A stretch of 64,000 nucleotides of DNA from Planktothrix paucivesiculata PCC 9631 (GTDB taxonomy: Bacteria; Cyanobacteriota; Cyanobacteriia; Cyanobacteriales; Microcoleaceae): assembly GCF_900009265.2 (NCBI RefSeq), contig NZ_LR735021.1, positions 126,436-190,435 of the forward strand, written 5' to 3'. A model generated the notes under the pieces. It was not told where the DNA came from, did not search any database, and saw nothing but the letters and a program-made list of their open reading frames with translations. Shown here piece after piece: positions 28,193 to 62,533 of this stretch (the first letter of the stretch is position 1; each line of letters opens with the position of its first letter). The position numbers and the translations under genes were made by a program.

Positions 28193-28203
28193 TCTTTAGC
28201 TTG

Positions 28204-39862: not shown

Positions 39863-40165
39863 TTAGGATAATTTTAAGTTAAGGGATAATTGCCCTGGGG
39901 AAATATTTCCTCGACTGCGACGATGACAAGCTAGATGGCAACTTGTACATAACGGAACCAAATTTTCTAAACGATTATCAGCCGGGTTATGGTTCCAGTG
40001 ATGGACTTGCAGTGTATAAGCTCGGCGTCGTGATTTGATGGCATCTGATAAAGGTTCTCCAGGTTTTATACAGAATAAACCACATTTTTGACATTGCCAA
40101 TTCGCCGCTTCTTTAACCGACCATGCCAGTTCCTTCCAATTTTCAGGATAACGATTTGAAGCCAT
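39863..40165 (-). CDS. HNH endonuclease family protein
   Basis: 100 residues: CQKCGLFC, YTLQVHHWNHNPADNRLENL and VPLCTSCHLACHRR give a textbook HNH fold (two CxxC zinc knuckles around HHxxxxxxDN). Stand-alone HNH proteins of this size occur widely and may act in DNA processing or defence. It converges with CyRepA1 and has no partner. Confidence 0.85.
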   Translation of the reverse strand: MASNRYPENWKELAWSVKEAANWQCQKCGLFCIKPGEPLSDAIKSRRRAYTLQVHHWNHNPADNRLENLVPLCTSCHLACHRRSRGNISPGQLSLNLKLS

Positions 40166-40217: not shown

Positions 40218-41762
40218 TTAACAAGAGGTTTGTAAATAGTCTGTAAGTTGGTCAAAAAGATCAGCGTTAATAGGGTATGTTCCGAGAATGGGATACTTAA
40301 CACCACCCCAAATACTACCCGATCGCACCCGATACAATGCTAATAATTCAGGAATTTTCGGGGATATAAAAACTTGTGGGGGTGCAAGTTGATCAAGTAA
40401 TCGCGCCCGTTGGTATTGAATTGATTGTGATAAAGCTATATCTAACTGTTTAGCTAGAATTTGTGGGTTTTCTACGACTTGATCCAGTAATAAAATATAG
40501 TGAGGTGGATTAGCAACTGGAACTAAGCTTTTAAAGCAAGTTTCTGGAATATTTAATTGCGCTAAAATATCACAAACAAAGCTTTCTTGTAGCTTTTCGC
40601 CTACTAGATCGCTGATGGCTTCATTTCGTCCTAAAAACTCTAAACAAGGAGTGTGATGATATATCCCCGATACGCGAATGCGATCGCCAATTCGATAACG
40701 ATATAATCCTCCCTTTTGCGATAAAATAATGGTATAGGTCTGCCCAATATTAAGTTCGTGTAGTTGATAAAAGCAACCCTGATCATCTTCAAACTCAAAA
40801 AAGACTTCATCCAAAACAGGAACATATCCGTTAGCTCCTATTAACGGAATTGTCATTGGGGCTTCTGTGGCTAATAAACCTTTACCTTGAACGAAGACAT
40901 TAGGAAATTGTAATTGCAACCCCTTCGCCCCATCTCCTGAATTAGCAGCATCCCAACAGGAAATTAGCTTTAAATTAGACCAAAGTTGTTGCCAAGGAAT
41001 CTGAGGTTCTGCGAGTAATTGCAGACGTTCATTTGATATTTTTTTCTGTAATTCTTTTGACAATAATTCCTGATATTCTTGAATATATTTTAAATGAGTT
41101 TGGAGAAAGCTAGGACTCCAAATTGAAATAATTTCGAGTTGTTCAGCTTGTAATAGTGCTAAAGAAAGCAGATGTTTAAATTGCTGGTAATTCTGCAAAC
41201 TTTTCAGTTTTTCTGGCATGACTAACCAAGGACGCAAAAACCATCGCAACCCATTATCTAAGTAATCTAAATCATTTTGCAAAGAAAGGGGATGATTGGA
41301 TTCAGAATCTAGGGAACCGAATTGAGGTGAAATACAAGCATAGAGTTTACCTGTGGAAAATTTAGGGCCATTTTGAATTAAGTCATACGCCCATACACAA
41401 AACATTTGATTGAAGGATTTTCGCAGCGATCGCGTGTAAGGAATCCATTTCACTGCACCGCTACTTCCAGAGGTTTTTTCATAAAATAAAATTGGTTCGG
41501 GTGTTAGTGGAATTCGCTGGCGTTGAGAATTTTGTTCTCCTAATATCCAATGTCTAATGTTATCATAATCAACGATAGGAACGTGCTGCCAATCTGCTAC
41601 AGAGCGAATGTTTAAGGATTTGCCGTACTCGCTTTGAATCAGGCGATCGCAAATTTCTCTTTGCACCAATTCTTGTGTCGCTTGCGGGTTATCTAATGCT
41701 CGATAAAATCGCCGATAACTTGGGGCTAGAAGTTGCCCAAATAGTTGAATAAATTCACGCAT
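40218..41762 (-). CDS. GH3 family acyl-adenylate amide synthetase
   Basis: 514 residues. GH3 (auxin-responsive promoter) superfamily enzymes activate an acyl group with ATP and join it to an amine, usually an amino acid. Seen: YEKTSGSSGAVKWIPYTRS (ATP-binding motif I, about 94-112), CWDAANSGD, GLLATEAPMTIPL (motif II), YRYRIGDRIRVSGIYHHTPC and LEFLGRNEAISDLVGEKL (motif III). Last gene of the minus-strand oxidative cluster; it shares its start with the stop of the LbH gene (1-base overlap). It probably makes the amide bond of the cluster's product. Confidence 0.85.
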   Translation of the reverse strand: MREFIQLFGQLLAPSYRRFYRALDNPQATQELVQREICDRLIQSEYGKSLNIRSVADWQHVPIVDYDNIRHWILGEQNSQRQRIPLTPEPILFYEKTSGSSGAVKWIPYTRSLRKSFNQMFCVWAYDLIQNGPKFSTGKLYACISPQFGSLDSESNHPLSLQNDLDYLDNGLRWFLRPWLVMPEKLKSLQNYQQFKHLLSLALLQAEQLEIISIWSPSFLQTHLKYIQEYQELLSKELQKKISNERLQLLAEPQIPWQQLWSNLKLISCWDAANSGDGAKGLQLQFPNVFVQGKGLLATEAPMTIPLIGANGYVPVLDEVFFEFEDDQGCFYQLHELNIGQTYTIILSQKGGLYRYRIGDRIRVSGIYHHTPCLEFLGRNEAISDLVGEKLQESFVCDILAQLNIPETCFKSLVPVANPPHYILLLDQVVENPQILAKQLDIALSQSIQYQRARLLDQLAPPQVFISPKIPELLALYRVRSGSIWGGVKYPILGTYPINADLFDQLTDYLQTSC

Positions 41763-42370
41763 TATTTTACTTTTTGATTAGGATAAAGGTTAGTTGTAAC
41801 CGGCAGATAAACACCATTTTCAATAGTTACACCGGGCGCAAGATTCGATCCAGCACCGATAAAAACATCATTGCCAATTTTGACTTTTTTGACATACAAC
41901 ATTAAGTTTTGCTTACGGGGTTTAATGATATGAGAATAAATGCCAACTCGATGTCCAATTACAACGCGATCGCCAATTTCTAACAAACCGCGATCGGCAA
42001 TTTCTAGCCCTGGTGTCCAGTATACATTTTGCCCGATTTTCGCCCCCCACAACCGCAACCAACCAGAAAATACCCCTGGAATTAATCGCAATACCGCCTC
42101 TAAAGCTGGAATTGCAATATATATTACTTGAATTTGATGGCTACCCCACCAAGGGCTATATTCTTTTCCCTGTAAATAACTAATCCCTTCTTTAATCGGA
42201 TAAATCCACTGATGTAATCGATAAATAAAAACGGGCAAACCATAAAGAGAAAACAAGATAGTCAAAGCACTAAAAATGCCGGGTGAATGGGCAAAGTAGA
42301 TTAACGATCCGCCAATGAATAGTAAAATGATAGCCGGAAATAATAAAAGAATTTGACTCAGTAGTGTCAT
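41762..42370 (-). CDS. Membrane-anchored left-handed beta-helix acyltransferase
   Basis: 202 residues. Two N-terminal TM segments (LLFPAIILLFIGGSLIYF; SALTILFSLYGLPVFIY) followed by hexapeptide repeats (AKIGQNVYWTPGLEIAD, LEIGDRVVIGHRVGIYSH, VKIGNDVFIGAGSNLAPGV) that form a trimeric LbH fold. Such enzymes acetylate or acylate hydroxyls or amines. It overlaps both neighbours by a few bases, so it is firmly in the operon with the fatty-acid hydroxylase and GH3 synthetase. Confidence 0.8.
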   Translation of the reverse strand: MTLLSQILLLFPAIILLFIGGSLIYFAHSPGIFSALTILFSLYGLPVFIYRLHQWIYPIKEGISYLQGKEYSPWWGSHQIQVIYIAIPALEAVLRLIPGVFSGWLRLWGAKIGQNVYWTPGLEIADRGLLEIGDRVVIGHRVGIYSHIIKPRKQNLMLYVKKVKIGNDVFIGAGSNLAPGVTIENGVYLPVTTNLYPNQKVK

Positions 42371-43113
42371 GAAAAAGGAAATAAAAATTTTTGAGTAAAA
42401 GTTAATGAAATTTTAGTTCCAAGTTGAGTTGGCAATTCACTGTTTTGATAATAAGTTCCATGCAACCGATCCCAAAGTTTTAAATTAGCACCGTAATTGC
42501 AGTTAGAAAACTGGCTGGAATGATGCCATGAGTGATCCTGGGGCAAAATTAACCAAGGAGATAGAAAACGGTAAAACCAACTATTTGCAGGAACAATCAG
42601 TTGGCTGTGTCGCCATAAATCTAGCACAGAAGTTAAGCTAACTCCTAAAAGATAGGCTATGGGGTCGGCTAGCACATACAAAAAAACTGAATGAATCCAC
42701 AAATAAACAATAAAAAAGCTTGCCCAAATCGTGTTACGAGATGTTCCCAAAACATCCAAATGAGTCACGGTATGATGCACTTGATGAACGTTCCAAAAAA
42801 AAGTAGAATGCAACAAGCGATGATTCCAGTAATAGAGATAATCAACGACAATAAAGCTAATCAGAAAGGTTAAAATTGGAGACACATGAAGATATCCGGG
42901 TGATATCGGTAGCCAGTCACGATAAAATTGATAAATTATCGTCGCTTGCAGAAGTGGAATTAGCATTCCTTGTACAAACAATCCAGCGCTATCTAATAAC
43001 CAATCTTCAAAAGATTTTGCTTTGAGTTGAGTTCTCCCTAATTTATTGCAGATAGTCCAGCCGACCAATCCGATAAAAGCAACAAACACTATAATTTGAA
43101 CAAGAATCTGCAT
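42367..43113 (-). CDS. Fatty acid hydroxylase/sterol desaturase family protein
   Basis: 248-residue integral membrane non-haem diiron enzyme. Histidine boxes NHRLLH (97-102), HQVHHT (110-115) and a C-terminal HSWHHSS match the FA_hydroxylase family; hydrophobic segments surround them. It would hydroxylate or desaturate an acyl chain or terpenoid. Next to GH3 and a Rieske oxygenase; overlap with the LbH gene is ATGA-like. Confidence 0.88.
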   Translation of the reverse strand: MQILVQIIVFVAFIGLVGWTICNKLGRTQLKAKSFEDWLLDSAGLFVQGMLIPLLQATIIYQFYRDWLPISPGYLHVSPILTFLISFIVVDYLYYWNHRLLHSTFFWNVHQVHHTVTHLDVLGTSRNTIWASFFIVYLWIHSVFLYVLADPIAYLLGVSLTSVLDLWRHSQLIVPANSWFYRFLSPWLILPQDHSWHHSSQFSNCNYGANLKLWDRLHGTYYQNSELPTQLGTKISLTFTQKFLFPFS

Positions 43114-43122
43114 AAATAAAGA

Positions 43123-44145
43123 TTAAACAAAAAATTTAACTTTAACTGATTCATCGGGTAATTGTCGCGGATCTTTTCCAGAGGCGATCGCATTTCGGAT
43201 CGACTCTACAAATACATGAATTGTATCAGCAGGGGTGTTAGAAAATTGGGTTCCATATTTGGCAATTGTTTCTCCTTGAATCCCTAATATTTTCACATCC
43301 TGCTGAATAATATGTTGTGCTGTCCATCTAACAAATGGACGGGCTAGTTTATTCCAAATGCCATAGTTATAAGTAACATCTGTGTAAACTAGGGTCGCAT
43401 TTTCGCTTTCAGGAATGGATTGACTGGTAATAAACAAATGGCGGTTTTTTCCCATCTGATATTCTACACTGGTAATATTTGGCATATAAAAGCGATCCCA
43501 ATGTTTAATTTCCGCACCCTGCTGATTTAAAAAGCGACTGTACCATCCTAAATTAATGGCTTCATTACTATACTCCACTAAAACCGAACCATTTTTTCGT
43601 TCTACAATCATTTGTAGCATTTGTTGACGAGGTTGGCGGAAAATACCGGGATGCACAAAGGCAGTATGGGGAATATCAATAAAGTTTTCTACACAATTCG
43701 TCACATTATTTTTAAAACGGTTAATCACTCGTATTGTTTCCCATCCAGATTCTTGATAATGGGGCATATAAAACGGGTTAGAATCTTCTTTAGGATGGTC
43801 ATTTAAACGTACATAAATATAACCATCTTGTTCTTTTGTTGCATAACATTTAGCTCGACGTTGTTGGGATAATTTGATTGAATTTCCCTCCGAAGGAACA
43901 GCGATCACATGACCATTTTGATCGTAAACCCATCCATGATAAGGACATTGTAATGCACCGTTACAAACCTTTCCAATAGATAGACGACTACTGCGATGCA
44001 AACAGCGATCTCGCAACGCCACAGCTTCTCCATTTTCTCCCCGAAATATTGCTAACCATTCTCCCAAGAGCGATCGCGCCAATACCGTGTTAGGCTTTAA
44101 TTGGTCACTCAATGCAACAATGTACCAGAAATCTGCAAATTGCAT
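43123..44145 (-). CDS. Rieske non-haem iron oxygenase (1 of 3)
   Basis: 340 residues. Rieske [2Fe-2S] site C48-x-H50 ... C67-x2-H70 (CLHRSS, CPYHGW) and mononuclear iron site ENFIDIPHTAFVH (H160, H165). PaO/VanA-type oxygenase; its reductant could be the ferredoxin of this cluster. The first 76 bases of the gene and its leader are repeated at 44962-45037, flanking a toxin-antitoxin pair. Confidence 0.9.
   Translation of the reverse strand: MQFADFWYIVALSDQLKPNTVLARSLLGEWLAIFRGENGEAVALRDRCLHRSSRLSIGKVCNGALQCPYHGWVYDQNGHVIAVPSEGNSIKLSQQRRAKCYATKEQDGYIYVRLNDHPKEDSNPFYMPHYQESGWETIRVINRFKNNVTNCVENFIDIPHTAFVHPGIFRQPRQQMLQMIVERKNGSVLVEYSNEAINLGWYSRFLNQQGAEIKHWDRFYMPNITSVEYQMGKNRHLFITSQSIPESENATLVYTDVTYNYGIWNKLARPFVRWTAQHIIQQDVKILGIQGETIAKYGTQFSNTPADTIHVFVESIRNAIASGKDPRQLPDESVKVKFFV
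44070..44145. repeat. 76-bp direct repeat, left copy (5' end of Rieske gene)
   Basis: Starts GCGATCGCGCCAATACCGTG and ends at TGCAT (start codon of the Rieske gene on the minus strand). It matches 44962-45037 with roughly ten differences. Confidence 0.85.
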
Positions 44146-44168
44146 ACAGTAAAGTTTATGAGGTAGAT

Positions 44169-44543
44169 ATGCTGAAAACTTTTTGGGCTACTGTTCGAGA
44201 AGGAAAAATTGAACTATTGGAGTCATCAGAGTTACCCGAAGGGACAAAAGTATTAGTAACAGTTTTACCTGATAAAGAAGCTGAGTTTTGGCTTCAAGCC
44301 AGTCAAACATCACTGGATACAGTTTGGAACAACACTGAGGACAGTTCTGAACTAAAAGAGCCGATACCAACGTTAACAACACTCACCAGTCCTCTACAAA
44401 AATTGTCATTGCAGCAAGAAACCAGTTCTCAATTGAAAAAGGGAAACCTTTCTCGATTACGAGGAATTGCCAAAACGACAGAAACATCGGGTGAAGATGT
44501 CGAAACAGATTATATTAACTATCTTACCAAAAAATATCAGTAA
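44169..44543 (+). CDS. Antitoxin partner of PIN toxin
   Basis: 124 residues from ATG 44169 (a start 57 bases earlier is possible). The N-terminus MLKTFWATVREGKIELLESS plus ELPEGTKVLVTVLPD is a swapped-hairpin-like antitoxin domain seen before PIN genes in cyanobacteria. The C-terminal tail (GNLSRLRGIAKTTETSGEDV) is the likely toxin-neutralising arm. Stop and toxin start overlap by one base. Confidence 0.72.
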   Translation: MLKTFWATVREGKIELLESSELPEGTKVLVTVLPDKEAEFWLQASQTSLDTVWNNTEDSSELKEPIPTLTTLTSPLQKLSLQQETSSQLKKGNLSRLRGIAKTTETSGEDVETDYINYLTKKYQ

Positions 44544-44956
44544 TGCGAGTTTTAATTGACACAAATGTTGTTCTTGATTTTTTGCAAGAGCGAGAACCTT
44601 TCGTTGATGATGCAGCCAAAATATTTGCAAAAATTGATGCTGGAGAACTTGAAGGGTTTATTTCAGCCATAACAATTACTAACATTTATTACATTATTCG
44701 TAAAGTATCTGGAAAGATAACTGCACAAGATGCACTAGCGCAAATTATGACAGACTTACATATTTGTGCGGTCGATAGAGAAATTTTAGAACAAGCGATC
44801 GCATTGAATTTTCAAGATTTTGAGGATGCAGTGCAGTGTGCTTGTGCAATAGCAAATGAAGTAGATGTGATCGTCACTCGTGATACTTCTGGATTCGTCA
44901 ACGCGGAAATTTTAGTAATTGCACCTGGGGAGTTAGAAAATATTATGGGTAGGTAA
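44543..44956 (+). CDS. VapC-type PIN domain toxin
   Basis: 137 residues: MRVLIDTNVVLDFLQEREPF (first acidic residue D6), NFQDFEDAVQCACA and VIVTRDTSGF carry the PIN acidic constellation. Putative ribonuclease toxin paired with the preceding antitoxin. The pair is inserted between two copies of a Rieske-gene 5' fragment. Confidence 0.88.
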   Translation: MRVLIDTNVVLDFLQEREPFVDDAAKIFAKIDAGELEGFISAITITNIYYIIRKVSGKITAQDALAQIMTDLHICAVDREILEQAIALNFQDFEDAVQCACAIANEVDVIVTRDTSGFVNAEILVIAPGELENIMGR

Positions 44957-44961
44957 ATTAA

Positions 44962-45037
44962 GCGATCGCGCTAACACCGTGTTAGGCTTTAATTGGCTGC
45001 TCAATACAACAATGTACCAGAAATTTTCAAATTGCAT
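44962..45037. repeat. 76-bp direct repeat, right copy
   Basis: Degenerate copy of 44070-44145, separated from it by the toxin-antitoxin genes. It holds a dead copy of the first 25 codons of the Rieske oxygenase. The following 180 bases to 45218 contain no gene; they probably hold the promoter of the HEPN gene. Confidence 0.8.
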
Positions 45038-45218
45038 GGTGTATGGTGATAAAAACCGAGAGCAATCGTATTTCAATTATGGCAAATTCTTGAGGATAAC
45101 TGGGATATTTACATCATATTATTAGGTCTTAACTGGTATAAATACTACAATTATGTTGTATTGTAGTATAAATCTTAAAATTGCTGATTTGTAAGGTATT
45201 CATACAGAGGTACTTTAT

Positions 45219-45965
45219 ATGACTCATCCAGGATGGTTAGGTGGTTTTCCAGGAGATTGGACATATCATGGTGATGCCAAACTTTTAATTGGTGACGCTG
45301 TTCAATCCATAACTATTAGCCTACGCCTCCTCTTTGTAGAGCAAGCCGATATAGATGTCAAGCTAATATGGAAAGGTATTACTGATGATGAGCAATTAAA
45401 AACTGCCGTAAAGATGCAAGAAGAAAGGCAGCAACTTCTAGTTATTCAAGAAAGTATATTTTTAATTGGATATTCTAGGCCACCTTTTGAGGCTAATAAC
45501 GGAATAACAAACTTTCATGTGACAAGATTTATAACTTCTTCTGGGCTACCAAAAGATTGTTTTACCGAAGAACAGACAGATTATTTTATTCAATTAAGAG
45601 CTTACTTAAATGACGATTTTTCATCAATGGATGATATTTTTGCTACAGAATTTGAGAATATCCCCCAGCGAAGAGACAGAAACTTTAGCACTATAAGAAC
45701 TCACCCAAGTTTGTATTGTGCGTTGAATTCAGGCTACGAAGTCAAGTGTGGTAAAAAGTATATCACTCACAAAGATCACAATATCACTTATACAAAAAAT
45801 ATAGATACTCTCTATAAATTTAGTTTTATAGATGTTAGTATTCCATTAAAAAATAAACATCTAACTAAGCTGATAATTGATGAGGCCCAAGAAATTGAAG
45901 TTTCGTTAGCTAGACATTTAGAGCAGGCTCTCAATGATACTTGTGCTTTTCTCAGTATTAAGTAG
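45219..45965 (+). pseudogene. ApeA-like HEPN protein, N-terminal half (IS630-interrupted)
   Basis: Codes 247 residues from MTHPGWLGGFPGDWTYHGDA onward. The stop TAG at 45963-45965 is supplied by the inverted repeat of the inserted IS630. The host frame breaks at TA 45959-45960. Removing the IS joins it in frame to the HEPN half at 47146 (499 residues in total). The N-terminal beta-rich region is of the type that precedes HEPN domains in ApeA-like abortive-infection proteins. Family name is tentative. Confidence 0.72.
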
Positions 45966-47143
45966 GTGGTCATAAATAGAGTTAAAATAAGAAATGAAGA
46001 AATATCAGAGGAATAGTCATGCCACTGAGGTTAAGAATTCAACTAACAGAAGAAGAAAAACAAGAGCTACTAACTCTGTATCAGCAAGAGAAAGTTCCGA
46101 AAAGAACAAGGCAGAGAATAGATATATTAATGTTTAGTGATGGAGGATGGATGGTCTCAAAAATAGCCCAGACTTTAAGGTGTTCAGAAGCCATGGTAAG
46201 AAAAACAATAACTCGATGGATAAATCAAGAAAAAGAAGGATTATTTGATGCTCCTCGTTCGGGAAGAAAACGGAGGTGGAAAGAAGAAGATATAGAATAT
46301 TTAGAAACTTGTATAGAGTCAGATGAAAGAACTTATAATAGCCGTCAACTGTCGGAAAAACTTCTGCGAGAGAGAGCGATCGCACTAAGCGCAGAAAGAA
46401 TTAGAAAAATCTTAAAAAAAAAAGACTGGCGCTGGAAAAGAACAAAAGCCAGTTTAAAGAAAAAACAGAATCCCGAAAAAACAGCGAGCAAGAAAAGAGA
46501 TTTGGAGACGTTAAAGCGTTATGAAGAAGAGGGTTTGGTCAGATTAAAATATTTAGATGAGGCAGGTTTTTGTTTATGGAGTCCTGTGAGTTACACCTAT
46601 GTAAAAAAGGGGAAGCAGAAACAAATAAACCAGACGAAAAAGCGAGGAAAAAGATTGAATGTAATTGGAGTATTAGAAAAAGGAAAAAGTTTTGAGTACG
46701 GTTTAAGTTTGTCAGGAATTACAAGTGAGAATTACATAAAATTTATAGATTGGCAAGCGGAAAAAGCTGAAAAGCATTTTCAAAATACTCGACAAATTAC
46801 CGTACTGATTCAAGATAACTACAGTGTCCATAAAAGTCAAAAAATACAAGAAAAAGAAAGGGAGTGGCAAGACAAAAAATTAGAATTTTTCTTCCTGTCT
46901 GCTTATAGCCCTGAATTGAATGAAATCGAACCAGAATGGCATCAATTAAAAACTCATGAACTGGCGGGAAGAATGTTTGAAGATGAATATGATTTGAGCC
47001 AAGCTGTGATTCAAGCCATTGAAGATAGAAACGAAAGAAATGATTGTACCTGCGATCGCTTGCGATTTAATTCCCTGAGTAACTCTCAAGAATTATCCTA
47101 AACAATCTTTTTCTATTATTGACTTTATTTATGACCACCTACT
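45961..47143 (+). mobile_element. IS630-family insertion sequence, complete
   Basis: 1,183 bp with terminal inverted repeats AGTAGGTGGTCATAAATA and its near complement, flanked by TA at 45959-45960 and 47144-47145. One transposase. Same orientation and same sequence as the partial copy at 1-436, so the two bracket about 45.5 kb as direct repeats. It disrupts the HEPN gene. Confidence 0.95.
46019..47101 (+). CDS. IS630 family transposase
   Basis: 360 residues in a single frame. N-terminal HTH region (MVSKIAQTLRCSEAMVRKTI), HTH_29/winged part with GLFDAPRSGRKRRW, then the DDE domain: VRLKYLDEAGFCLW (first Asp), VLIQDNYSVH (second) and SPELNEIEPEWHQLK (Glu). No frameshift, so it is probably active. 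A weak AGAGGAA ribosome site lies ahead of ATG 46019. Confidence 0.95.
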   Translation: MPLRLRIQLTEEEKQELLTLYQQEKVPKRTRQRIDILMFSDGGWMVSKIAQTLRCSEAMVRKTITRWINQEKEGLFDAPRSGRKRRWKEEDIEYLETCIESDERTYNSRQLSEKLLRERAIALSAERIRKILKKKDWRWKRTKASLKKKQNPEKTASKKRDLETLKRYEEEGLVRLKYLDEAGFCLWSPVSYTYVKKGKQKQINQTKKRGKRLNVIGVLEKGKSFEYGLSLSGITSENYIKFIDWQAEKAEKHFQNTRQITVLIQDNYSVHKSQKIQEKEREWQDKKLEFFFLSAYSPELNEIEPEWHQLKTHELAGRMFEDEYDLSQAVIQAIEDRNERNDCTCDRLRFNSLSNSQELS

Positions 47144-47145
47144 TA

Positions 47146-47903
47146 TTTGTGATTATGAAATTATGCCAATTTATTATGATTATTCGATGTTTTATAAACA
47201 GAAATATATTTATGGTCGAATAATTCCTATTTGGGATAGACGAAGAATACCTAGAACTAGCAAATCTTGGCCTACAAAAGGAATCCATTTTTTAGGCAAT
47301 ATTACTTCATTTCTTGAATGTTGTCCTTTAAGCAAACAACTGAGCCGAGGAATTGAACACCTAAAGATTACAGTTTATGAATCTACTGTAGAGTTGAAAT
47401 TAATGGCAGCCTGTTCTGCAATTGAATACTTCTATTCCTACTGGTTTCGGGAAATGAATGGACTCTCAAAGCTAATCAACGCTGTTTCGGAAAATAATCA
47501 ACTTGTAAAGTTGAAGCAGGTTTCTCCTGGTAGAACACCGTCCCTTTCGACTGTCATCCGATTCTTCATTGATGATTTAGGCATTGATTGGAAGAAATAC
47601 ATGGGTGATAAAGCTAGTCCTCAGTTCATTCAAGTTAGAAATGACCTTTTACACGGGAGTTTTATCTCAGATGATATAAAAATTTTTGAAGCAGAGGAGG
47701 TTGCTCAAAAGTTGGGAACAGAAATTTTATTCTCGATTATGAAAAATATTTCCAAATTAAAGGACTCTGAAGAATATGAAAGTTTGCCTATTCGGACTCC
47801 AGAAAAAGATTTTTATAAACTTTCAGATGGCTGGAATGAAATTAGAGATGTATTAGATGAGTTGCATACTGATAAAAACTACAAACGATTCTGGGATCTA
47901 TAA
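47146..47903 (+). pseudogene. ApeA-like HEPN protein, C-terminal half
   Basis: Continuation of the interrupted gene; the first ATG after the IS is 47163. Helical domain with LKLMAACSAIEYFYSYWFRE and the HEPN ribonuclease motif FIQVRNDLLHGSF (R-N-x3-H, Arg at 47637, His at 47652). HEPN nucleases of this type act in phage-triggered abortive infection. The half protein could still be made from 47163, but without its N-terminal sensor part. Confidence 0.75.
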
Positions 47904-47956
47904 TGGCAATAAATTAGAAAGTAAACTATTCACAGTAATTAATTCTGCTTTATCTT

Positions 47957-48253
47957 TCAACATTCGCCATCTAATCTAAAAATTTTAACATTAGCTGTGA
48001 GGTCAATTTGACAGGCTAATCGAGCATTTGGAACATTAGGTGCTAATGTATCCAACAATTCCTGCTCATCTACTTTAGCAGCAGGAATATCACCAATTAC
48101 TTTAACTAAGCAAGTTCCACAGATTCCCGTCCGACAGCCAAACAAAACAGGTGAATTTTGAATGGTTAGATGTTCAGACAAATTTTGATGAGGTTGCAAA
48201 GTAATGGGAGGATAATCAGTTCCAGGAAAGGAGATTTTACATAAATTAGACAT
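47957..48253 (-). CDS. Plant-type [2Fe-2S] ferredoxin
   Basis: 98 residues from ATG 48253; an upstream in-frame start at 48298 lies within the neighbouring gene. Cluster ligands C40, C45, C48 (GCRTGICGTC) and C81 (LACQIDL). It overlaps the AurF-like gene by 8 bases, so it is co-translated and is the obvious electron donor to the oxygenases of this cluster. Confidence 0.92.
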   Translation of the reverse strand: MSNLCKISFPGTDYPPITLQPHQNLSEHLTIQNSPVLFGCRTGICGTCLVKVIGDIPAAKVDEQELLDTLAPNVPNARLACQIDLTANVKIFRLDGEC

Positions 48254-49430
48254 GGGAGAAATCCTCTCGATATTGCCGTTCAAAGCGTTGAAAAGCACTT
48301 TTTTGAATTGCTAAATATTGGGGAATGGAATTAGATGCCATTAGCGTCATTTCTCGATTGCGTTTCCATAGGTAATCGATCTTTTCCACATACACTTTAT
48401 AAGATTCCATTGCTTCTTGATGGGTTAAATAACTGCGGTGTAATCCCTCTGATTCCTCAGTAAAGCAGCGTCGCATCATGTCTTTAGCTTCTTTTTTAGT
48501 TAAGTTAAAAATAGGCGATCGCAACACCCGATAAATTTTGCTATACAATGCTGGATCATACCAAAAAATCCCATTAATAGCAGCAGAAAAATGAAAGTGA
48601 TCCCGTTGACATCCCCATAATCCTAAATTTCCCACTAACGTTTCAAACGAGGTGGGTGGTGTAAGACAAGTGACAACATCGTGAGATAAAATTGTCGAAC
48701 TATTAAAATGAAAGCTTTCATCGAGAAAATGATAGTAAGAAATTTTAGCGGGAATGGGTGCTAACTCTTGATGGGGATGTTTCTGATAGTAGTTGCTGAG
48801 TTTATGCTGGATTAATTTACCATTTAATGTTCGCACGCCTCGGACAGTAAAATACTGACAAGCCAAAAAAGTATTATTTGCAGAAATTAAACCAAAGTAT
48901 TGAAGTTGAATCTTTTTCCACCAGGTTTTTAACGCATTTGTATCCGCATAAACCATTGTTTCTGTAAAGGGCGATCGCATTGGGTAAGTAAAAATTAATT
49001 CACCAAACAATGCTTGTTCAACTTGTTTAGAAATCGTGCGAAATGCGTTAATATGGGCGCGTTCTTGAGACGATTCTAAATCTAATGTATCGCAAATTAA
49101 ACGGAAATCTTCATAGGCGTAAAGACCCGTAGCGCTAGTTTGATTAAAAAAGATAGTGGCAATTTCAGCCGAGACAATTTGCGAATAGTAAGCGACCCAG
49201 TAAAGTTGATTTAGAATTAAGCGCTGATCTGGACTCGATTGCTCCCATAAAGGAGTACCATACAGTAAAGAAAACTCCTCTGGATTCCAATACTCATTTT
49301 TACAATCTTCATAACAAAACTTTTCAACAGCTTCATCCATTAAAGTCGTCTGATCTTGCTGTTTGTTGCGTTTATAATTAATTTGTAACTTGCGATAAAT
49401 CGTGGGATGATTGGTTAATTGATTTTCCAT
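48246..49430 (-). CDS. AurF-like diiron oxygenase
   Basis: 394 residues. Helical ferritin-like core with iron ligands suggested by SAEIATIFF, LESSQERAHINAF (ExxH) and YYHFLDESFHFNSS (ExxH). This pattern fits the p-aminobenzoate N-oxygenase AurF family, which oxidises amines to hydroxylamine, nitroso or nitro groups, though related proteins do other oxidations. It starts 9 bases after the ferritin-like gene stop and is followed by its ferredoxin. Substrate unknown. Confidence 0.65.
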   Translation of the reverse strand: MENQLTNHPTIYRKLQINYKRNKQQDQTTLMDEAVEKFCYEDCKNEYWNPEEFSLLYGTPLWEQSSPDQRLILNQLYWVAYYSQIVSAEIATIFFNQTSATGLYAYEDFRLICDTLDLESSQERAHINAFRTISKQVEQALFGELIFTYPMRSPFTETMVYADTNALKTWWKKIQLQYFGLISANNTFLACQYFTVRGVRTLNGKLIQHKLSNYYQKHPHQELAPIPAKISYYHFLDESFHFNSSTILSHDVVTCLTPPTSFETLVGNLGLWGCQRDHFHFSAAINGIFWYDPALYSKIYRVLRSPIFNLTKKEAKDMMRRCFTEESEGLHRSYLTHQEAMESYKVYVEKIDYLWKRNREMTLMASNSIPQYLAIQKSAFQRFERQYREDFSHV

Positions 49431-49438
49431 ATTAAAGT

Positions 49439-50362
49439 TTAACTAAAGTTAACGCATTGGTGAGCAGGTAAGGGAACAAAAGCACCTTTTTCTTCTAACG
49501 CTTGAATGATCGCCTCTGCTGATTTTCCCCGCATCAGCGATCGCAATAATTTTAACCGAGTTCCGCTATGGGTTTCCGTATCCAATTCTTCTAGGATTTT
49601 GATTTTTTGCGATCGCGAAATATCTCCTTTCACCTGTGCGATCGCACTTAGCACATTTTGGGGGCCAACTCGTACCATCATTAAAAACTTTGCCAATAGT
49701 TCAATCATTAATTCTTGACTAGATTTTGAAATTAAAATTTTCTCAAACAATAAACTTCCGGTTGCCTGATGGCGCGCTTCTGCCTCCAAAAAACCAGAAA
49801 AAATTTCTGCAAGATTTTGATAACAACATTCCTTTGCCAGTCGGCGATAGTGACTTAAACCCCATCCTTCTAACACCACTTGTAACACAAATAATAACAC
49901 AGTTTTATCGGTACTTTCAACAACTTCTGCTAATAAGTTTAGAAACGGATCTTGATGATTCGTTAATTCAATTTCTGGCAAAAAATAGCTGATTTGACTC
50001 AGATGATTGGCTTCATCGGCTGCAAATAAACCGTAGAGCATTCGTTCTTCAACGGTTTCTGCTAAAAGCGTCATTTTTGCCATATAACCAACGCCTGCAT
50101 TCTCAATATAATATGCTTCTTCTAATAAGCTGCGGTTAACAAATTCAAGAATAGCAGACTGTTCGCGATCGCTGGCATCTTGAAACATTTTAACTCGATT
50201 CAAATTAAAAAATTCCGCATTCCAATATTGGTAACTTAAGTCTATTTTAGGACGTTCTTGCTTGGGCAATGCTGCCGTCAAAACCTGTCTTAATTTGTGA
50301 TTCGAGGTGACATGAGGTAAATTTAATCCGGCAATTTGGGATTCTGATAAAGGTTGATTCAT
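49439..50362 (-). CDS. Ferritin-like diiron protein
   Basis: 307 residues from ATG 50362 (a TTG at 50416 is the frame limit). Iron-binding helices: SLLEEAYYIENAG (E81/E82), DEANH (E117-x2-H120), EGWGLSHY and LEAEARH (E195-x2-H198), the two-ExxH carboxylate-bridged diiron pattern. Distinct from the AurF-like neighbour. May be an oxygenase acting in series with it, or a partner subunit. Confidence 0.72.
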   Translation of the reverse strand: MNQPLSESQIAGLNLPHVTSNHKLRQVLTAALPKQERPKIDLSYQYWNAEFFNLNRVKMFQDASDREQSAILEFVNRSLLEEAYYIENAGVGYMAKMTLLAETVEERMLYGLFAADEANHLSQISYFLPEIELTNHQDPFLNLLAEVVESTDKTVLLFVLQVVLEGWGLSHYRRLAKECCYQNLAEIFSGFLEAEARHQATGSLLFEKILISKSSQELMIELLAKFLMMVRVGPQNVLSAIAQVKGDISRSQKIKILEELDTETHSGTRLKLLRSLMRGKSAEAIIQALEEKGAFVPLPAHQCVNFS

Positions 50363-50402
50363 ACTAATATACTTAAAAAATAGATGGATTGCGATCGCGA
50401 TT

Positions 50403-51416
50403 TTATACCTGATCAACTGCTTCCCAAGTTTTCCAGTTCAGTGCTTTCTGGCGGTTAACCTGTTGCATAAATTCTCGAATGGAATGATCCGCTTTTGTGG
50501 GGGTTTTTAGGTCAAATTGAATGGTTTGAAAGACTTGTGTATCCCCCTTAGCAAAGTAATTACCAACCTGTTGAGTTAACCACAGTAACCCCTGATTAAT
50601 TCCCCATTTCAAACATCCCGATCTTTTCGGGGTTATTAAAATTGTTTGTCCCTCGGTTTTTCCTCCCTCAATCATTCGGAGTGCAAAGACAATATAGAAG
50701 TGCAAAAAATCGGGGCCAAGGGTTACTGTTCCCGTGCTACCATACCAATAACACATACTATAAGTCACTTCATTTTTATAGAGGGGACGAATCAAACGAA
50801 TTAACCCATAATCATCACCTCCCCTGGTTGTATTGCTAAAAGTAATAGCATGAGAATTCAGTTCTTTAGAATCAAAAATAATCTCTAAAGGTAAATTGTG
50901 AACTGTATTAAAGTGGTGAGCATCGATCGCATTAATTAGCAGCACATTCGGATGACAGTTTTTAATAAATCGAGTCCCCAAACGATAATCGCAATCTACC
51001 TGTTCTAATTCCGGTACAAAAGGCAGTAAATTAGGTGAACCTTCTCCCACCCACACCCAAATTAGACCATAATTTTCTGCCGTTTGCCAAGTTTTTATAG
51101 ACACATTTAGGGGTTTTTCCAACGAAGGAATATCGATGCAAATTCCATCCCCATTATATTTCCAATTATGGAAAAAACAGCGAATTTCATCCCCTTCTAC
51201 CTTCCCTTCTGCCAAATGAGCACCCATGTGGGGGCAATAAGCATCTAACGCCACCACCTGACCGCTAATACCCCGATAAATGGCTAAATTTCTTCCCAAA
51301 AGTGTGACCGCTTTCACCTTCCCAACTTTTAATTCTTTAGAGGGTAATGCCCAGTACCATCCCTCAACAAATTGAGTGGGATTATTAAAAATAGCATGAG
51401 GTTTTTGATCAGACAT
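50403..51416 (-). CDS. Rieske non-haem iron oxygenase (2 of 3)
   Basis: 337 residues from ATG 51416. Rieske ligands C61, H63, C80, H83 (YCPHMGAH, CFFHNW) and an iron-site motif NAIDAHHFNTVHNLPL. Its start lies 6 bases after the GNAT-like gene stop. More similar in layout to oxygenase 3 than to oxygenase 1 (both have IDAxHxxTxHxL and lack the CPYHGW form). Confidence 0.88.
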   Translation of the reverse strand: MSDQKPHAIFNNPTQFVEGWYWALPSKELKVGKVKAVTLLGRNLAIYRGISGQVVALDAYCPHMGAHLAEGKVEGDEIRCFFHNWKYNGDGICIDIPSLEKPLNVSIKTWQTAENYGLIWVWVGEGSPNLLPFVPELEQVDCDYRLGTRFIKNCHPNVLLINAIDAHHFNTVHNLPLEIIFDSKELNSHAITFSNTTRGGDDYGLIRLIRPLYKNEVTYSMCYWYGSTGTVTLGPDFLHFYIVFALRMIEGGKTEGQTILITPKRSGCLKWGINQGLLWLTQQVGNYFAKGDTQVFQTIQFDLKTPTKADHSIREFMQQVNRQKALNWKTWEAVDQV

Positions 51417-51421
51417 AAGAA

Positions 51422-52162
51422 TTAAATTAAAACCGAGTTTTGCACAAATTCTAGGGGTGATTCTGCATCCCACATTCGTTGTCCCGCCGGGGTGAGATTT
51501 TCATAACAAATTTCTGTTAAACAAACCAATTCATCACCTAATTTATAACCTGGGTTTTGAGTTGTAAAAAAATGAATATGAGGGTTAGTTTGTCGTCCCG
51601 ATGGAATTTCTATTAATTTATCCTGAAGAATCTGGGGAGATTGAAAGCGGACAATTCCCGTTGCTTTGTTATAAAAATCACCATAATATTCTTCGGCTAA
51701 ACTTGCCATTAACTTTTCAGTAAAAACAGGGGTATTTGTATTGTATTGAGGATAGAACTCTTTCCAAAATATGGGCAGAAACCGATAGGTACGAAAACCC
51801 GAACAAATGAGAAGCCAATAGAGTTTATTTTCAGTATGTTTTTGACGTAAAAAATTAACGGCAGCGATCCAAGTTCGAGGTAAGGTGGTGCTTAACCAAA
51901 CACTGGGATCGACGATCGTATCCCCTGAATAAATAACACTAATTTTTTCCCCTAAAAAACTCGTCTGACACAACATTAAGGTCGAAAAGCCTTTTAGAGT
52001 ATTAGTTGTTTCATCTCTTAACAATAATACCCAATTTTTGCGATCAAGATCGGTCTGGAACCCATCCCATGTAATACCCAGAAAATGATTGTCTAAAAGG
52101 GTATACATAGAAGTACGATCGCTAAGATGTAGCTTTGTAACGGGAACTAGCCAACTTTTCAT
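51422..52162 (-). CDS. GNAT-like hypothetical protein
   Basis: 246 residues. The central part (TLKGFSTLMLCQTSFLGEKI, VIYSGDTIVDPSVWLS) and overall alpha/beta pattern suggest a GNAT-type acyltransferase, but the acetyl-CoA motif is not clear. First gene of the second half-operon, behind a 150-base gap. Could transfer an acyl group during biosynthesis; low certainty. Confidence 0.5.
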   Translation of the reverse strand: MKSWLVPVTKLHLSDRTSMYTLLDNHFLGITWDGFQTDLDRKNWVLLLRDETTNTLKGFSTLMLCQTSFLGEKISVIYSGDTIVDPSVWLSTTLPRTWIAAVNFLRQKHTENKLYWLLICSGFRTYRFLPIFWKEFYPQYNTNTPVFTEKLMASLAEEYYGDFYNKATGIVRFQSPQILQDKLIEIPSGRQTNPHIHFFTTQNPGYKLGDELVCLTEICYENLTPAGQRMWDAESPLEFVQNSVLI

Positions 52163-52312
52163 GATTTGGAGACTACCGGAACTCGGTTTTCAAGTATACT
52201 CTTCTAGTTTACTCAATGTTATTTGAGAACAGCAATAGCTCACCTTTATTAAGATAATAAACTTAATGCAAATGAGTTCCTATTTTTTAGGATTAAGTGA
52301 TTTTTAATAGAT

Positions 52313-53323
52313 TCATCTTAAATGACAATTTTCATCCCGTGACCATTCAGAGGGTTGAAGCTGATTAACATACTCTATATATTGAACTAAGGGTTGATCA
52401 ATACTGAGGATTATCTGGGGATTAAACCGAATATTATCATAAATTTTGCCATCTTCATCCCTGAGCATATAATAAGCCAAACGGGTACAAAATAATAAAA
52501 ACTGACTGAACAAATAACCCAGGATTCCCTGACGTTTTTCGGTGACATAAATCGGTTGAATTCGGGTTCTTTGTGGTGCGATCGCCGTGTAAGCATAAAT
52601 CATGTGAAGGGGAGGAAATAGCCGTACATTTTTCATCATTGTCAGTAAACCAATGCAGCCATCTGCATAACGCATAGAATACTCATAACTAGACCCTAAA
52701 AAATATTGCCCTAACCTTTCTCGCCAAGTTGTTTGGGGGAATTGTCCCCGCATCGTAAAGTCAATTTGTGTCCCTAATTCATTTCTGTTTAAAGATAGCT
52801 CCATTTTAATATCTAAATGATGAATGGTTTTCAAATGTTGAGCATCAATTCCATTCATCATACAAATATGATGATGGCAACTTCTTTCAAAAGCGGTATC
52901 AGCTTGGCTAATAATCTCTTTTCCCTTCAATTCATCAAATTCAACCACACCTTCCGATGCTTTAGCATCAGGATAAATCCAAATAAAGCCGTACTTTTCC
53001 TCCGTTGCGTAAGCTGTTAATTTAGCTTGAGTAGGGATTTCCACTTGACAAGGAATATTTTGACAAACTCCTGTTTCATCAAATGCCCAATGATGAAATG
53101 CACAGCGAATCCAATTTCCCTCAACTTGCCCAATTCCTAAATCTGTTCCGAGATGAGGACAATAGGCATCTAAGGCCCGAACTTTTCCATCTTCACCTCG
53201 AAAAATGACAATTTTTTGACCGCAAATTTCTACAGATTTTGCTTTTTTTTGAGGTAATTCTTGACTAGGGCAAGCAATATACCAACCTTTGGCAATAATA
53301 TTCCAGTTATTAAATTTTTGCAT
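52313..53323 (-). CDS. Rieske non-haem iron oxygenase (3 of 3)
   Basis: 336 residues. Rieske ligands C55, H57, C74, H77 (YCPHLGTD, CAFHHWA); catalytic domain with MNGIDAQHLKTIHHLDI. Forms an operon with the amidohydrolase and DUF962 genes upstream (24-base gap). A C-terminal hydrophobic stretch (FSQFLLFCTRLAYYML) may associate with membrane, as in PaO-like oxygenases. Confidence 0.88.
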   Translation of the reverse strand: MQKFNNWNIIAKGWYIACPSQELPQKKAKSVEICGQKIVIFRGEDGKVRALDAYCPHLGTDLGIGQVEGNWIRCAFHHWAFDETGVCQNIPCQVEIPTQAKLTAYATEEKYGFIWIYPDAKASEGVVEFDELKGKEIISQADTAFERSCHHHICMMNGIDAQHLKTIHHLDIKMELSLNRNELGTQIDFTMRGQFPQTTWRERLGQYFLGSSYEYSMRYADGCIGLLTMMKNVRLFPPLHMIYAYTAIAPQRTRIQPIYVTEKRQGILGYLFSQFLLFCTRLAYYMLRDEDGKIYDNIRFNPQIILSIDQPLVQYIEYVNQLQPSEWSRDENCHLR

Positions 53324-53347
53324 AAAAAACCTTAATTTTAAAATTAG

Positions 53348-53758
53348 TTAATTGACTTTTAACTGATACTGTTGTAAAATTTCTTGACGTTGACGAATAT
53401 CCTCTCTATATTTTCCCGATAGAACCCTAAATAACAGTTTACCTAAACAAAAAGATGCTCGCCATGAGAAGATAGCATCCTGTAAATCAATAGCACTTCG
53501 TTCAAATAAAAAATGTCCAGCTAATCCGATTAACTGCGTAATAGGCAAACCGAAGAGTAACCAATAATTGTGCGATTTCCAACTGATGAAAAGTAAGCCG
53601 TAAAAGAAGAATATACCGATAATGTGAAGGCTTATATTGAGCGGGTGTTGGTGTTTCAGAACAAAAATATCCCAGTAGTCTGTAAAAGGATGATTGAGAA
53701 TGCGATCGCTAATTTTATTGTTCAATTTTGGGTTGAAATTAGGAGTGATAAATTTCAT
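53348..53758 (-). CDS. DUF962/Mpo1-like membrane protein
   Basis: 136 residues with HQHPLNISLHIIGIFFFYG, the His-rich signature of the DUF962/Mpo1 family, plus three to four hydrophobic segments. The yeast member is an Fe(II) dioxygenase of 2-hydroxy fatty acid alpha-oxidation. In this cluster, beside a fatty-acid hydroxylase and Rieske enzymes, a role on hydroxylated acyl chains is attractive but inferred. Confidence 0.6.
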   Translation of the reverse strand: MKFITPNFNPKLNNKISDRILNHPFTDYWDIFVLKHQHPLNISLHIIGIFFFYGLLFISWKSHNYWLLFGLPITQLIGLAGHFLFERSAIDLQDAIFSWRASFCLGKLLFRVLSGKYREDIRQRQEILQQYQLKVN

Positions 53759-53769
53759 AAACGATTTGA

Positions 53770-55503
53770 TTAATAAGAAGGAGATAAAAGGGTTCCCAGA
53801 CGTTCTCGACCTAAAATTTCCCTAACTTGACCTCGATTAACAACTTGAATTCCCTTAATATAAACCGCTTCCACAATTTCTTCCGATCCCCGTTTAACCA
53901 TGCGAGGTTCGCCATCTAAAATTGGATCTAAAATTTCGACTTGGGGACTAATGGGTTGGTTGAGCGCTTGAGGATTTAGTAGTAATAGATCCGCTTGAGC
54001 GCCAACCTTCAGAACACCCGTATCCAGCCTAAACCAACGAGCGGGTTCTCCGGTAACGCGAGCGATCGCCTTTTCCGGTGTCAAGAATTCTGTCGTCACA
54101 GCTTGCTTGAGCAAAGATAACGCCCCATCGTAGTAACCCAAGTTACGGACATGAGCCCCCGCATCAGTGAAACCGGGCAAAATATAGGGATGCTGCATCA
54201 GTGCTAAACGAGGTGCTAAACGATCATTTGCTCCCGTCGCCACCCAACGCAAATCCGTGTCATACTTCCGCAATGCTTCAATAAACAAATCTACAGGTTC
54301 CTGGTGTTTTTGAGCAGCAATTTCAGCAAAACTTAATCCTTGCCAACTCGTTTCAGGACAACGCACAATTTCCATTAAATCTAACTGACGATGAAATGAT
54401 TTTCGCCAATTATTTAACCATTCTTGGCGAAATTGACGGCGAAAAGTTTCCGAATCCCATAAAGTTTGTCGTTCTTGTCGTGAATTGCAGCTATTGAGTT
54501 GTGCGCCTGTGGGGAATTCTTCAAATAAAGGAGTCACGGAACCATCAGAATAAATTGTGAAGGGTTCGGTTAACGTTTGAAAGCGAACATTCCCCTTAAG
54601 AATGTGGTTCCAAAAATAGAGCAAGGGAGAAAAAATGCGCCACAATTTGCGATCATGAACGGCATCTAACGCTGATAAAACGGTCAGCCTTAACGGTTTT
54701 TGCCCAATTCCAGAACCCATGCGAAGAATATCTAAAAAAGAGGCAAGTCGCTGTAAATTTGGAGTGACTTGAAACACTAAATCTCGTTCTCGACAAAGAT
54801 CAGCAAGCATCGCATATTCTGGAAGTTTGGCGTGTTGGGATGGGATTGTACAACCCCTCCATTCTCCACTCATCCGATGCCAGGGAAACATATCTATTGA
54901 AATGCCAATAAATCCAGCATCTAAAGCATTTGTGGCAATTTGTTGCATAGTTTTAAGTTCAGTTTCTGAAGGTTGAACGGTTAAGCTACGTTCTAATCCC
55001 ATCACATGAGCGCGTAAGGCACTATGCCCCAATAAAGGCGCCACATTAGCACCCAGTTTTAATTGTTTTAAATGTTTTAAATACTCTGCGGGGGTCTGCC
55101 AAGAAACCGATTGTTTTAACCATTTTTCAATCAATTTATGGGAAAGAGTTTCGACTCTCTGAAATATATCTGCCAGCATTTGGGGTTGACCCACGGCAAC
55201 CGATAAGCTGCAATTACCAATCACCACGCTGGTCACACCATGACGCACTGATTCGCTTAATCCGGGTGCAATTTCTAACTCTAAATCGTAGTGAGTGTGA
55301 ATATCGATAAATCCCGGTGTTACCCATAAACCGGACGCATCGATAATTTGATGAGCATTGGGGGGGAGAGAAGATGCGATGCCTTGGCAGGCGGCTAACG
55401 CCATCGCCACAATCTTACCCTTTTCAATCCCAATATCTCCTCGCATTGGTGCGGAGCCTAAACCGTCGAAAATTAACCCGTTTTGAATTAGCAAATCTAA
55501 CAT
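53770..55503 (-). CDS. N-acyl-D-amino-acid deacylase-type amidohydrolase
   Basis: 577 residues. Amidohydrolase superfamily: PGFIDIHTHYDLELE (H69, H71), VIGNCS (the Cys found in D-aminoacylases), GHSALRAHVMG, GFTDAGAHV (catalytic Asp) and the C-terminal LLLLNPQAL/DLRWVATG segments. It hydrolyses N-acyl amino acid-like amides. First gene of the cluster; in the same pathway as the GH3 amide-forming enzyme, it could process, recycle or detoxify the product. Confidence 0.82.
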   Translation of the reverse strand: MLDLLIQNGLIFDGLGSAPMRGDIGIEKGKIVAMALAACQGIASSLPPNAHQIIDASGLWVTPGFIDIHTHYDLELEIAPGLSESVRHGVTSVVIGNCSLSVAVGQPQMLADIFQRVETLSHKLIEKWLKQSVSWQTPAEYLKHLKQLKLGANVAPLLGHSALRAHVMGLERSLTVQPSETELKTMQQIATNALDAGFIGISIDMFPWHRMSGEWRGCTIPSQHAKLPEYAMLADLCRERDLVFQVTPNLQRLASFLDILRMGSGIGQKPLRLTVLSALDAVHDRKLWRIFSPLLYFWNHILKGNVRFQTLTEPFTIYSDGSVTPLFEEFPTGAQLNSCNSRQERQTLWDSETFRRQFRQEWLNNWRKSFHRQLDLMEIVRCPETSWQGLSFAEIAAQKHQEPVDLFIEALRKYDTDLRWVATGANDRLAPRLALMQHPYILPGFTDAGAHVRNLGYYDGALSLLKQAVTTEFLTPEKAIARVTGEPARWFRLDTGVLKVGAQADLLLLNPQALNQPISPQVEILDPILDGEPRMVKRGSEEIVEAVYIKGIQVVNRGQVREILGRERLGTLLSPSY

Positions 55504-56469: not shown

Positions 56470-56471
56470 AA

Positions 56472-58880: not shown

Positions 58881-58888
58881 TCTATTAG

Positions 58889-59668: not shown

Positions 59669-59758
59669 GGTTTGATTCATTTCGTTCAGTGAAGCGATCG
59701 CTTAAAATGGCGAGTATACTTAATCCCAAATAATTAAACTGTCAACAAACTATCCCAC

Positions 59759-60865: not shown

Positions 60866-60885
60866 TTTCTCAACCCGTGTGAAAA

Positions 60886-62501: not shown

Positions 62502-62533
62502 GGCTGGCTGAATTAAATTCTTAAATTAATTCC

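Follow-up and report, generated by a model that had tools for sequence, protein, structure and literature searches.

A conserved Rieske-containing gene cluster that pairs a CylC-type halogenase homologue with a GH3 enzyme in Planktothrix paucivesiculata

This study examines twelve minus-strand genes at positions 40218-55503 of a 64,000-nucleotide stretch of DNA (hereafter the window) from Planktothrix paucivesiculata PCC 9631, which covers positions 126,436 to 190,435 of contig NZ_LR735021.1. The genes form a genuine, widely conserved bacterial biosynthetic cluster of a known orphan class, in which a GH3 enzyme is a constant partner of a halogenase-like enzyme, a pairing that is new relative to the survey of Eusebio et al. 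2021 (PMC8406957). All twelve open reading frames (ORFs) are intact, and the positions, strand and domains assigned to them in an initial annotation hold under an ORF check and a Pfam scan. That annotation's proposal of a true biosynthetic cluster without a polyketide synthase (PKS) also stands: the Pfam scan recognised no carrier-protein, fatty acyl-AMP ligase (FAAL), PKS or non-ribosomal peptide synthetase (NRPS) domain among the twelve proteins. Its reading of one protein as AurF-like, with a possibly N-oxidised product, needs revision, as does its view that no described pathway has this combination of genes.

In the main text of the survey, Rieske-containing CylC clusters make up 36 of 95, the largest of seven classes and one with no known product. 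Such clusters are said there to encode two to four Rieske proteins together with a member of the sterol desaturase family, and to have some homologues outside cyanobacteria. The authors find neither substrate-activating nor carrier proteins in them and suggest that the enzymes act on fatty-acid intermediates. The window cluster fits this class on that main-text description: the two share a Rieske count within the range of two to four (three in the window), one CylC homologue, a sterol-desaturase-family protein, the lack of carrier or FAAL, and hosts among Nostocales and Oscillatoriales. The cluster differs in that GH3 and GNAT proteins are constant partners here, whereas the description has no activating enzyme, and GH3 occurs nowhere in the survey's main text. 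We found no literature on GH3 and Rieske proteins together in a cyanobacterial biosynthetic gene cluster, and no follow-up paper giving the class a product, in searches outside which preprints and most subscription papers fell; PMC8401325 does no more than cite the survey, and the one Rieske passage in the available part of PMC7024214, a conference book, is unrelated. To our knowledge, and within those searches, the new points are the GH3/GNAT coupling and a glutamine signature in the CylC-like protein, the class itself having been catalogued in 2021.

Catalytic residues of the CylC-like protein

Judged from its residues, the protein first called AurF-like (48246-49430, 394 aa, assigned by residue signature and tree) belongs with the homologues of diiron halogenases of the CylC type and is not an N-oxygenase. 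It is the single CylC-like match in its own genome and carries E89, QExxH at 122 and HxxDExxH at 234, with Gln208 where Glu is expected. The available text of PMC12101540 names nine catalytic residues for CylC/NocO, among them those of QExxH and HxxDExxH, and reports that changing any one of the nine to alanine, as in E252A, left NocO inactive. We aligned 79 Rieske-clade sequences, comprising the window protein and 78 ORFs longer than 330 aa from 80 loci, and eight of the nine residues were invariant in 79/79. All six predicted iron ligands are retained, as is the Gln of QExxH, a halogenase-specific residue that is Asp in AurF. The ninth position (NocO E252; AurF E196) is Gln in 79/79 of these sequences and Glu in 11/11 relatives from other clades. 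Gln at the E252 position is known for a small subset of CylC homologues (PMC12101540, in the text available), and that subset may be this Rieske clade. With halogenases of the CylC/NocO/ColD type the protein has eight of the nine catalytic residues in common, namely those of QExxH and HxxDExxH and the first Glu, and it differs from them in the clade-wide Gln and in having no carrier protein nearby.

With AurF N-oxygenases the protein would share a ferritin-like diiron fold, to judge from common ligands. Identity as an AurF N-oxygenase was considered and rejected: the Pfam AurF model scores 16.6 bits, below its cut-off of 29.6, and Gln stands at both the D135 and the E196 positions. The N-oxidation that the initial annotation allowed as possible gives way, as the first guess, to chlorination, in view of the dimetal halogenase signature, QExxH with HxxDExxH, of CylC/NocO. 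A sequence search of the PDB with the CylC-like protein returned nothing at E<=1.

Phylogenetic analysis of 51 of the 90 sequences, those of Eusebio et al. 2021 not being included, split the Rieske clade from the 11 other-clade relatives with support of 100/100. Cyanobacterial sequences grouped at 99/96, and the window protein was placed beside those of Planktothrix rubescens and Microseira wollei. The relatives linked to FAAL or acyl carrier protein (ACP) genes show about 27-35% identity; distant relatives on Planktothrix and Gloeothece plasmids (27-32%) stand in the order FAAL-ACP-X-PKS, the setting in which the 2021 survey, in its main text, places CylC homologues (PMC8406957). The window protein falls in the Rieske clade, apart from these FAAL/PKS-linked homologues.

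Conservation of the cluster and the tie to GH3

Scanning genomes for the CylC-like protein gave 123 relatives, and the best 80 of the 123 loci were analysed, 69 of them cyanobacterial and 11 from Planctomycetota, Gamma- and Alphaproteobacteria, Myxococcota, Bdellovibrionota, Elusimicrobia, Chloracidobacterium and Melainabacteria. The initial annotation had proposed looking for co-occurrence in other cyanobacteria, and there the order GNAT-Rieske-ferritin-like-CylC-like-ferredoxin-Rieske-hydroxylase-LbH-GH3 does recur, with a rearranged form in other phyla. Among loci with full flanks, the nine-gene core lay within 10 kb in 30/44 cyanobacterial and 4/4 non-cyanobacterial loci. In the same 44 cyanobacterial loci the second Rieske gene (R2), the ferritin-like gene and the ferredoxin gene (Fer2) were each present in 43, GNAT in 42, the other two Rieske genes (R1 and R3) each in 40, the fatty-acid hydroxylase gene (FAH) in 38, LbH in 35, GH3 in 32, Mpo1 in 21 and the amidohydrolase gene in 16. 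Across all 80 loci a ferredoxin gene occurred in 72, and in one locus (L046) R3 was the sole partner beside the CylC-like gene. Within Nostoc, 24 of 53 genomes have a CylC-like orthologue, and Nostoc punctiforme NIES-2108 carries the cluster.

Two further loci may be mentioned here. One (L138, genome G305, contig C132:8348-10728) is apparently a decayed cluster, in which an R2-like Rieske gene is intact but its neighbours are fragments, one of GNAT and a short one of GH3 interrupted by three stops; the other (L137, genome G058) groups GNAT, ferritin-like and LbH relatives in a genome without a GH3 or CylC-like match.

The GH3 acyl-acid amido synthetase-like gene (40218-41762, 514 aa) matches the N, M and C Pfam models of GH3 at 101.6, 60.4 and 24.2 bits, each above its cut-off. 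Its product contains the TSGSSG (P-loop) and YRIGD motifs, in columns conserved among 49 aligned sequences, and aligns with plant GH3 around YRxGD; the literal strings match 33/51 and 31/51 GH3 ORFs of related loci, and the window protein has both. Its best NCBIfam match is OlsH, at 27.1 bits against an equivalog cut-off of 620. The central role that the initial annotation gave to GH3 is borne out by its distribution. Orthologues of the CylC-like protein (at least 515 bits, next 253) and of GH3 (at least 286 bits, next 250.5) were confined to the identical 21 of 386 genomes of the cyanobacterial phylum (hypergeometric 4e-35, ignoring kinship). A sample of 240 genomes from Bdellovibrionota, the phylum of locus L074, had 19 carriers of the CylC-like gene, of which 18 also had GH3 (7e-9; one 20-bit fragment excluded): within 10 kb in 17, on another contig in one (G594), and absent in G627. 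GH3 was likewise present in 5/5 non-cyanobacterial genomes tested, including one (G438) whose CylC-like locus, L077, is without it.

Separation of the genes in relatives had been named in advance as a result that would count against the cluster, and this is what was found in part. The CylC-like and GH3 genes lie on one contig about 1 Mb apart in genome G076 and about 2.9 Mb apart in G125, yet they still co-occur; in G027 the distance is 26 kb, and G093, G116 and G038 have them on separate contigs, where assembly breaks are possible. According to the main text of PMC8406957, PriA-containing CylC clusters of Synechocystis are similar, with other functions dispersed in the genome. G076, in which the CylC-like, ferritin-like and R2 genes stand together with GH3 far off, resembles that pattern, and its assignment there is a guess.

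A GNAT-fold acyltransferase-like protein (51422-52162, 246 aa) is also a partner of GH3. It has no Pfam family, and the fold is shown by an AlphaFold2 model and VIA-align matches. The profile found nothing credible among PDB sequences, the Pfam GNAT model was matched weakly by 4 of 33 members of the family (best 0.0011), and comparison with a second GNAT-looking family of related loci gave an hhalign probability of 17.6%, by which a relationship is not shown. The protein occurs in 31/386 genomes, including all 29 with GH3 at 100 bits or more. In the eight of those 29 that are without a CylC-like orthologue, GH3 and GNAT genes are no more than 5 kb apart. In three of the eight these genes adjoin radical SAM genes that are homologous to one another: L129 and L130 (genomes G100 and G297), with the order GNAT-GH3-LbH, and L132 (G077), with the GNAT-GH3 pair alone (domains were scanned in G100, where one protein has a B12-binding domain). 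These loci look like an oxygen-independent counterpart of the cluster. In two more, G199 and G062, the surroundings include a fatty-acid desaturase, the domain having been scanned in G199. The pattern suggests a GH3-GNAT lipid core older than the oxygenases, with exchangeable oxidation modules.

Oxygenases, optional genes and replicon setting

Seven O2-activating iron enzymes are predicted in the cluster: three Rieske proteins, the CylC-like, ferritin-like and Mpo1-like proteins and the fatty-acid hydroxylase. R1 (43123-44145, 340 aa; Pfam Rieske and VanA_C) has the Rieske-cluster and mononuclear-iron motifs in 64/64 sequences, with SxtDIOX and NdmA the nearest solved structures. For R2 (50403-51473, 356 aa; Pfam Rieske 82.6 bits) the motifs are present in 68/68, and for R3 (52313-53323, 336 aa; 90.5 bits) the mononuclear-iron motif is present in 55/57, KshA being the nearest solved structure to both. 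The initial annotation had allowed that the oxygenases might map to a known pathway, but no curated pathway model fits; the NCBIfam model SdmA, with a cut-off of 600 bits, scores 81, 75.7 and 71 bits for R1, R2 and R3. An obligatory hopanoid or sterol substrate was also rejected, as PF13249 (the triterpene cyclase N-terminal domain) is absent in 8/21 carriers, 7 of them at least 94% complete.

In the conserved gene order the second gene downstream of that for the ferredoxin encodes the membrane fatty-acid hydroxylase/sterol desaturase family protein (FAH; 42367-43113, 248 aa; PF04116 87.2 bits). Nine His are invariant in its 56/56 sequences, and its best NCBIfam match is OlsE, at 73.9 bits against a cut-off of 475. 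Beside it lies the LbH (hexapeptide) acyltransferase-like gene (41762-42370, 202 aa; Pfam Hexapep 39.8 bits), whose product has His147 in 50/50 aligned sequences. The [2Fe-2S] ferredoxin gene (47957-48298, 113 aa; Pfam Fer2 34.5 bits) overlaps the CylC-like gene, and four Cys are conserved in 69/69 of its relatives. Presumably this one ferredoxin is a shared electron donor for all seven iron enzymes; Pfam and NCBIfam scans of the twelve genes revealed none for a reductase. The ferritin-like diiron protein (49439-50416, 325 aa, aligned in a 307-aa form from the ATG at 50362) has Glu, ExxH, Glu and ExxH columns that are invariant in 35 aligned sequences, with the spaced pattern in 72/73. A PDB sequence search with the protein returned nothing at E<=1, and its profile matched designed diiron proteins only (best 0.00098), plus aldehyde deformylating oxygenase at E 0.47. 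The Mpo1-like (DUF962) protein (53348-53758, 136 aa; PF06127 33.7 bits) retains its conserved His/Glu in 25-26 of 26 sequences and is possibly an alpha-oxidation dioxygenase. The last of the twelve, an N-acyl-D-amino-acid deacylase-like amidohydrolase (53770-55503, 577 aa; Pfam Amidohydro_3 60.2 bits), is nearest among solved structures to PpOngB, N-acyl-D-glutamate deacylase and D-aminoacylase.

Comparison with related loci extends the set beyond the amidohydrolase, up to 59527, by two minus-strand genes assigned with Pfam: a GT2 membrane glycosyltransferase (57573-58919, 448 aa) and a SnoaL_3/DUF4440-like protein (58889-59527, 212 aa). The GT2 gene is in 6/80 loci and adjoins the amidohydrolase gene in four (L013, L022, L034 and L071), while SnoaL relatives are in 8/80, four of them non-cyanobacterial, and in 8/8 lie beside the amidohydrolase gene or one GT gene away. 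Both are probable optional members of the cluster. Between the amidohydrolase and GT genes is an inserted minus-strand pair recognised with PADLOC (55564-57530), an AriB-like (DUF4435) protein and an AAA ATPase (AriA/PtuA-like). The pair is PARIS-like, the ATPase scoring about equally as AriA and PtuA; it is absent in 80/80 related loci and is probably outside the pathway.

The twelve-gene set is also interrupted by a plus-strand block of 3.8 kb (44112-47903) between the ferredoxin and R1. Its first part (44112-44956) is an antitoxin (44112-44543) and PIN_3 toxin (44543-44956; Pfam PIN_3 86.1 bits) pair, divergent from R1; Planktothrix rubescens and a number of Nostoc loci have it at the same position. 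Over the 69 cyanobacterial loci the antitoxin occurs in 11 and the PIN gene in 8, always between Fer2 and R1, and the pair is possibly an addiction module holding the cluster. The remainder is a window-specific insertion (45219-47903), absent in 80/80 related loci and consisting of an ORF (45219-45965), a DDE/IS630-type transposase (46019-47101; Pfam DDE_3 and HTH) and another ORF (47163-47903). A gene for a small HNH protein (39863-40165) with weak ZorE-like matches adjoins the GH3 gene.

Two features of the 314-kb contig are shared with Planktothrix plasmids, namely a gene of relaxase type and a stretch with ParB and integrase, the segments at 25984-28202 (relaxase) and 59672-64000 (ParB/integrase) being about 90-95% identical to them. 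By this resemblance the replicon is likely a plasmid; the record carrying the cluster in Planktothrix rubescens PCC 7821 is titled chromosome I. A giant modular type I PKS lies on the same contig (C137:20057-101677), 25-106 kb upstream of the window start. It holds 18 of the 20 ketosynthase-domain matches of the genome in open frames of 4507-5777 aa, and none are in the window.

A possible carrier-free lipid pathway and its alternatives

From the observed gene content, conserved order, intact catalytic residues and co-occurrence we infer the reactions that follow, including their order, the amine and the chlorination. The explanation that we prefer, tentatively and with somewhat less than even confidence, is an oxygen-dependent, carrier-free lipid pathway in which GH3 amidates a free long-chain acid and the CylC homologue and six oxygenases oxidise and probably chlorinate it. 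By analogy with GH3 chemistry, especially that of OlsH, GH3 would adenylate the acid and couple it to an amino acid or another amine. OlsH is a bacterial GH3 enzyme that joins free fatty acid and ornithine with ATP and Mg (PMC12493201, in the text available), and with such chemistry a carrier protein would not be needed. The chain might be functionalised by the CylC-type homologue, for which the QExxH and HxxDExxH signature makes chlorination, rather than N-oxidation, the first guess; chlorination of an unactivated carbon is the most likely reaction. Electrons could come from the cluster's own [2Fe-2S] ferredoxin, ferredoxin and reductase having been used in NocO assays. The three Rieske oxygenases, the ferritin-like diiron protein and the eight-histidine membrane hydroxylase would oxidise the molecule further, the GNAT-fold and LbH proteins would add acyl groups, and the optional Mpo1-like, deacylase, SnoaL-like and GT2 genes may trim or glycosylate the product, which is most likely an oxidised, probably chlorinated fatty-acid derivative.

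Several points weigh against this explanation. The bit-score thresholds that gave 21 and 21 genomes were chosen after the lists were seen; at a looser E<=1e-3, GH3 is in 53/386 and the CylC-like family in 33/386. GH3 is common in the Bdellovibrionota sample (79/240 genomes), and 12 of the 44 full-flank cyanobacterial loci have no GH3 within 10 kb, the rest of those genomes not having been scanned. GH3 is so weakly similar to OlsH that its acid and its amine may be different ones. Nostoc punctiforme ATCC 29133 has a chlorinated feature, C31H59O2Cl, that according to the available text of PMC10849952 is not made by the ngl cluster; it contains no nitrogen, so the amide part of our proposal falls if the feature comes from such a cluster. 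Lastly, with Gln for Glu throughout the clade and NocO E252A inactive, chlorination has possibly been lost or changed.

The last point leads to another explanation, which we consider doubtful, namely that the Glu-to-Gln exchange has retuned the diiron site of the CylC homologue, which would then act as an oxygenase or a desaturase and give a heavily hydroxylated N-acyl lipid without halogen. It would account for a strict split, Gln in one clade and Glu in the other, at a residue essential in NocO (PMC12101540, in the text available), and six other cluster oxygenases already indicate oxygenation; but the six predicted iron ligands and the Gln of QExxH are kept, and the same source describes a Gln subset among CylC homologues. 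It is also conceivable, and just as doubtful, that this is an aminolipid pathway parallel to that of ornithine lipids, with GH3 making an N-acyl amino acid, LbH and GNAT proteins carrying out O-acylation and the hydroxylase modifying the head group like OlsE, while the membrane lipid is a substrate of the Rieske and diiron enzymes. The OlsH/OlsI pathway of planctomycetes, in the available text of PMC12493201, likewise has a bacterial GH3 enzyme beside acyltransferases, proposed to make N-acyl compounds from free fatty acids. OlsH and OlsE are the best NCBIfam matches of the GH3 and hydroxylase proteins, and GH3-GNAT(-LbH) without oxygenases in the three radical SAM genomes suggests a core with exchangeable oxidation modules. 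Both matches are nevertheless far below cut-off (27/620 and 74/475 bits), the twelve genes include no recognisable relative of OlsI, OlsG, OlsB or OlsF, and the many oxygenases are extra to that pathway.

A pathway modifying sterols, hopanoids or pigments appears improbable: KshA is nearest to R2 and R3 among solved structures and SdmA is matched, but at 71-81 bits against 600, and 8/21 carriers are without PF13249. Mere chance neighbourhood of unrelated genes could be imagined from several Nostoc loci with loose spacing and insertions and from the toxin-antitoxin, transposase and ATPase inserts of the window. We give this almost no credence, and it was already disfavoured, as the gene content is common to many phyla and co-occurrence persists where linkage has been lost.

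A bolder and rather unlikely extension of the carrier-free pathway would be that Gln removes the last carboxylate able to fill the open iron site, leaving a committed carrier-free halogenase, which with GH3 would make a new class of chlorinated N-acyl lipids in cyanobacteria, in the predatory Bdellovibrionota and in further phyla. A variant of the GH3-GNAT lipid made with radical SAM enzymes in place of oxygenases would then belong to anaerobic relatives. A carrier-free aliphatic C-H halogenase, if that is what the enzyme is, would be a useful biocatalyst, as the main text of PMC8406957 notes. The tie to GH3 and GNAT indicates both an assay (free acid with ATP and amine) and a target (chloride-dependent amide lipids), and the Gln signature offers a one-residue test of halogenation against oxygenation in diiron enzymes. 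For the family as a whole, the distribution hints at a GH3-GNAT core that predates the oxygenases and is paired with radical SAM enzymes in oxygen-poor relatives.

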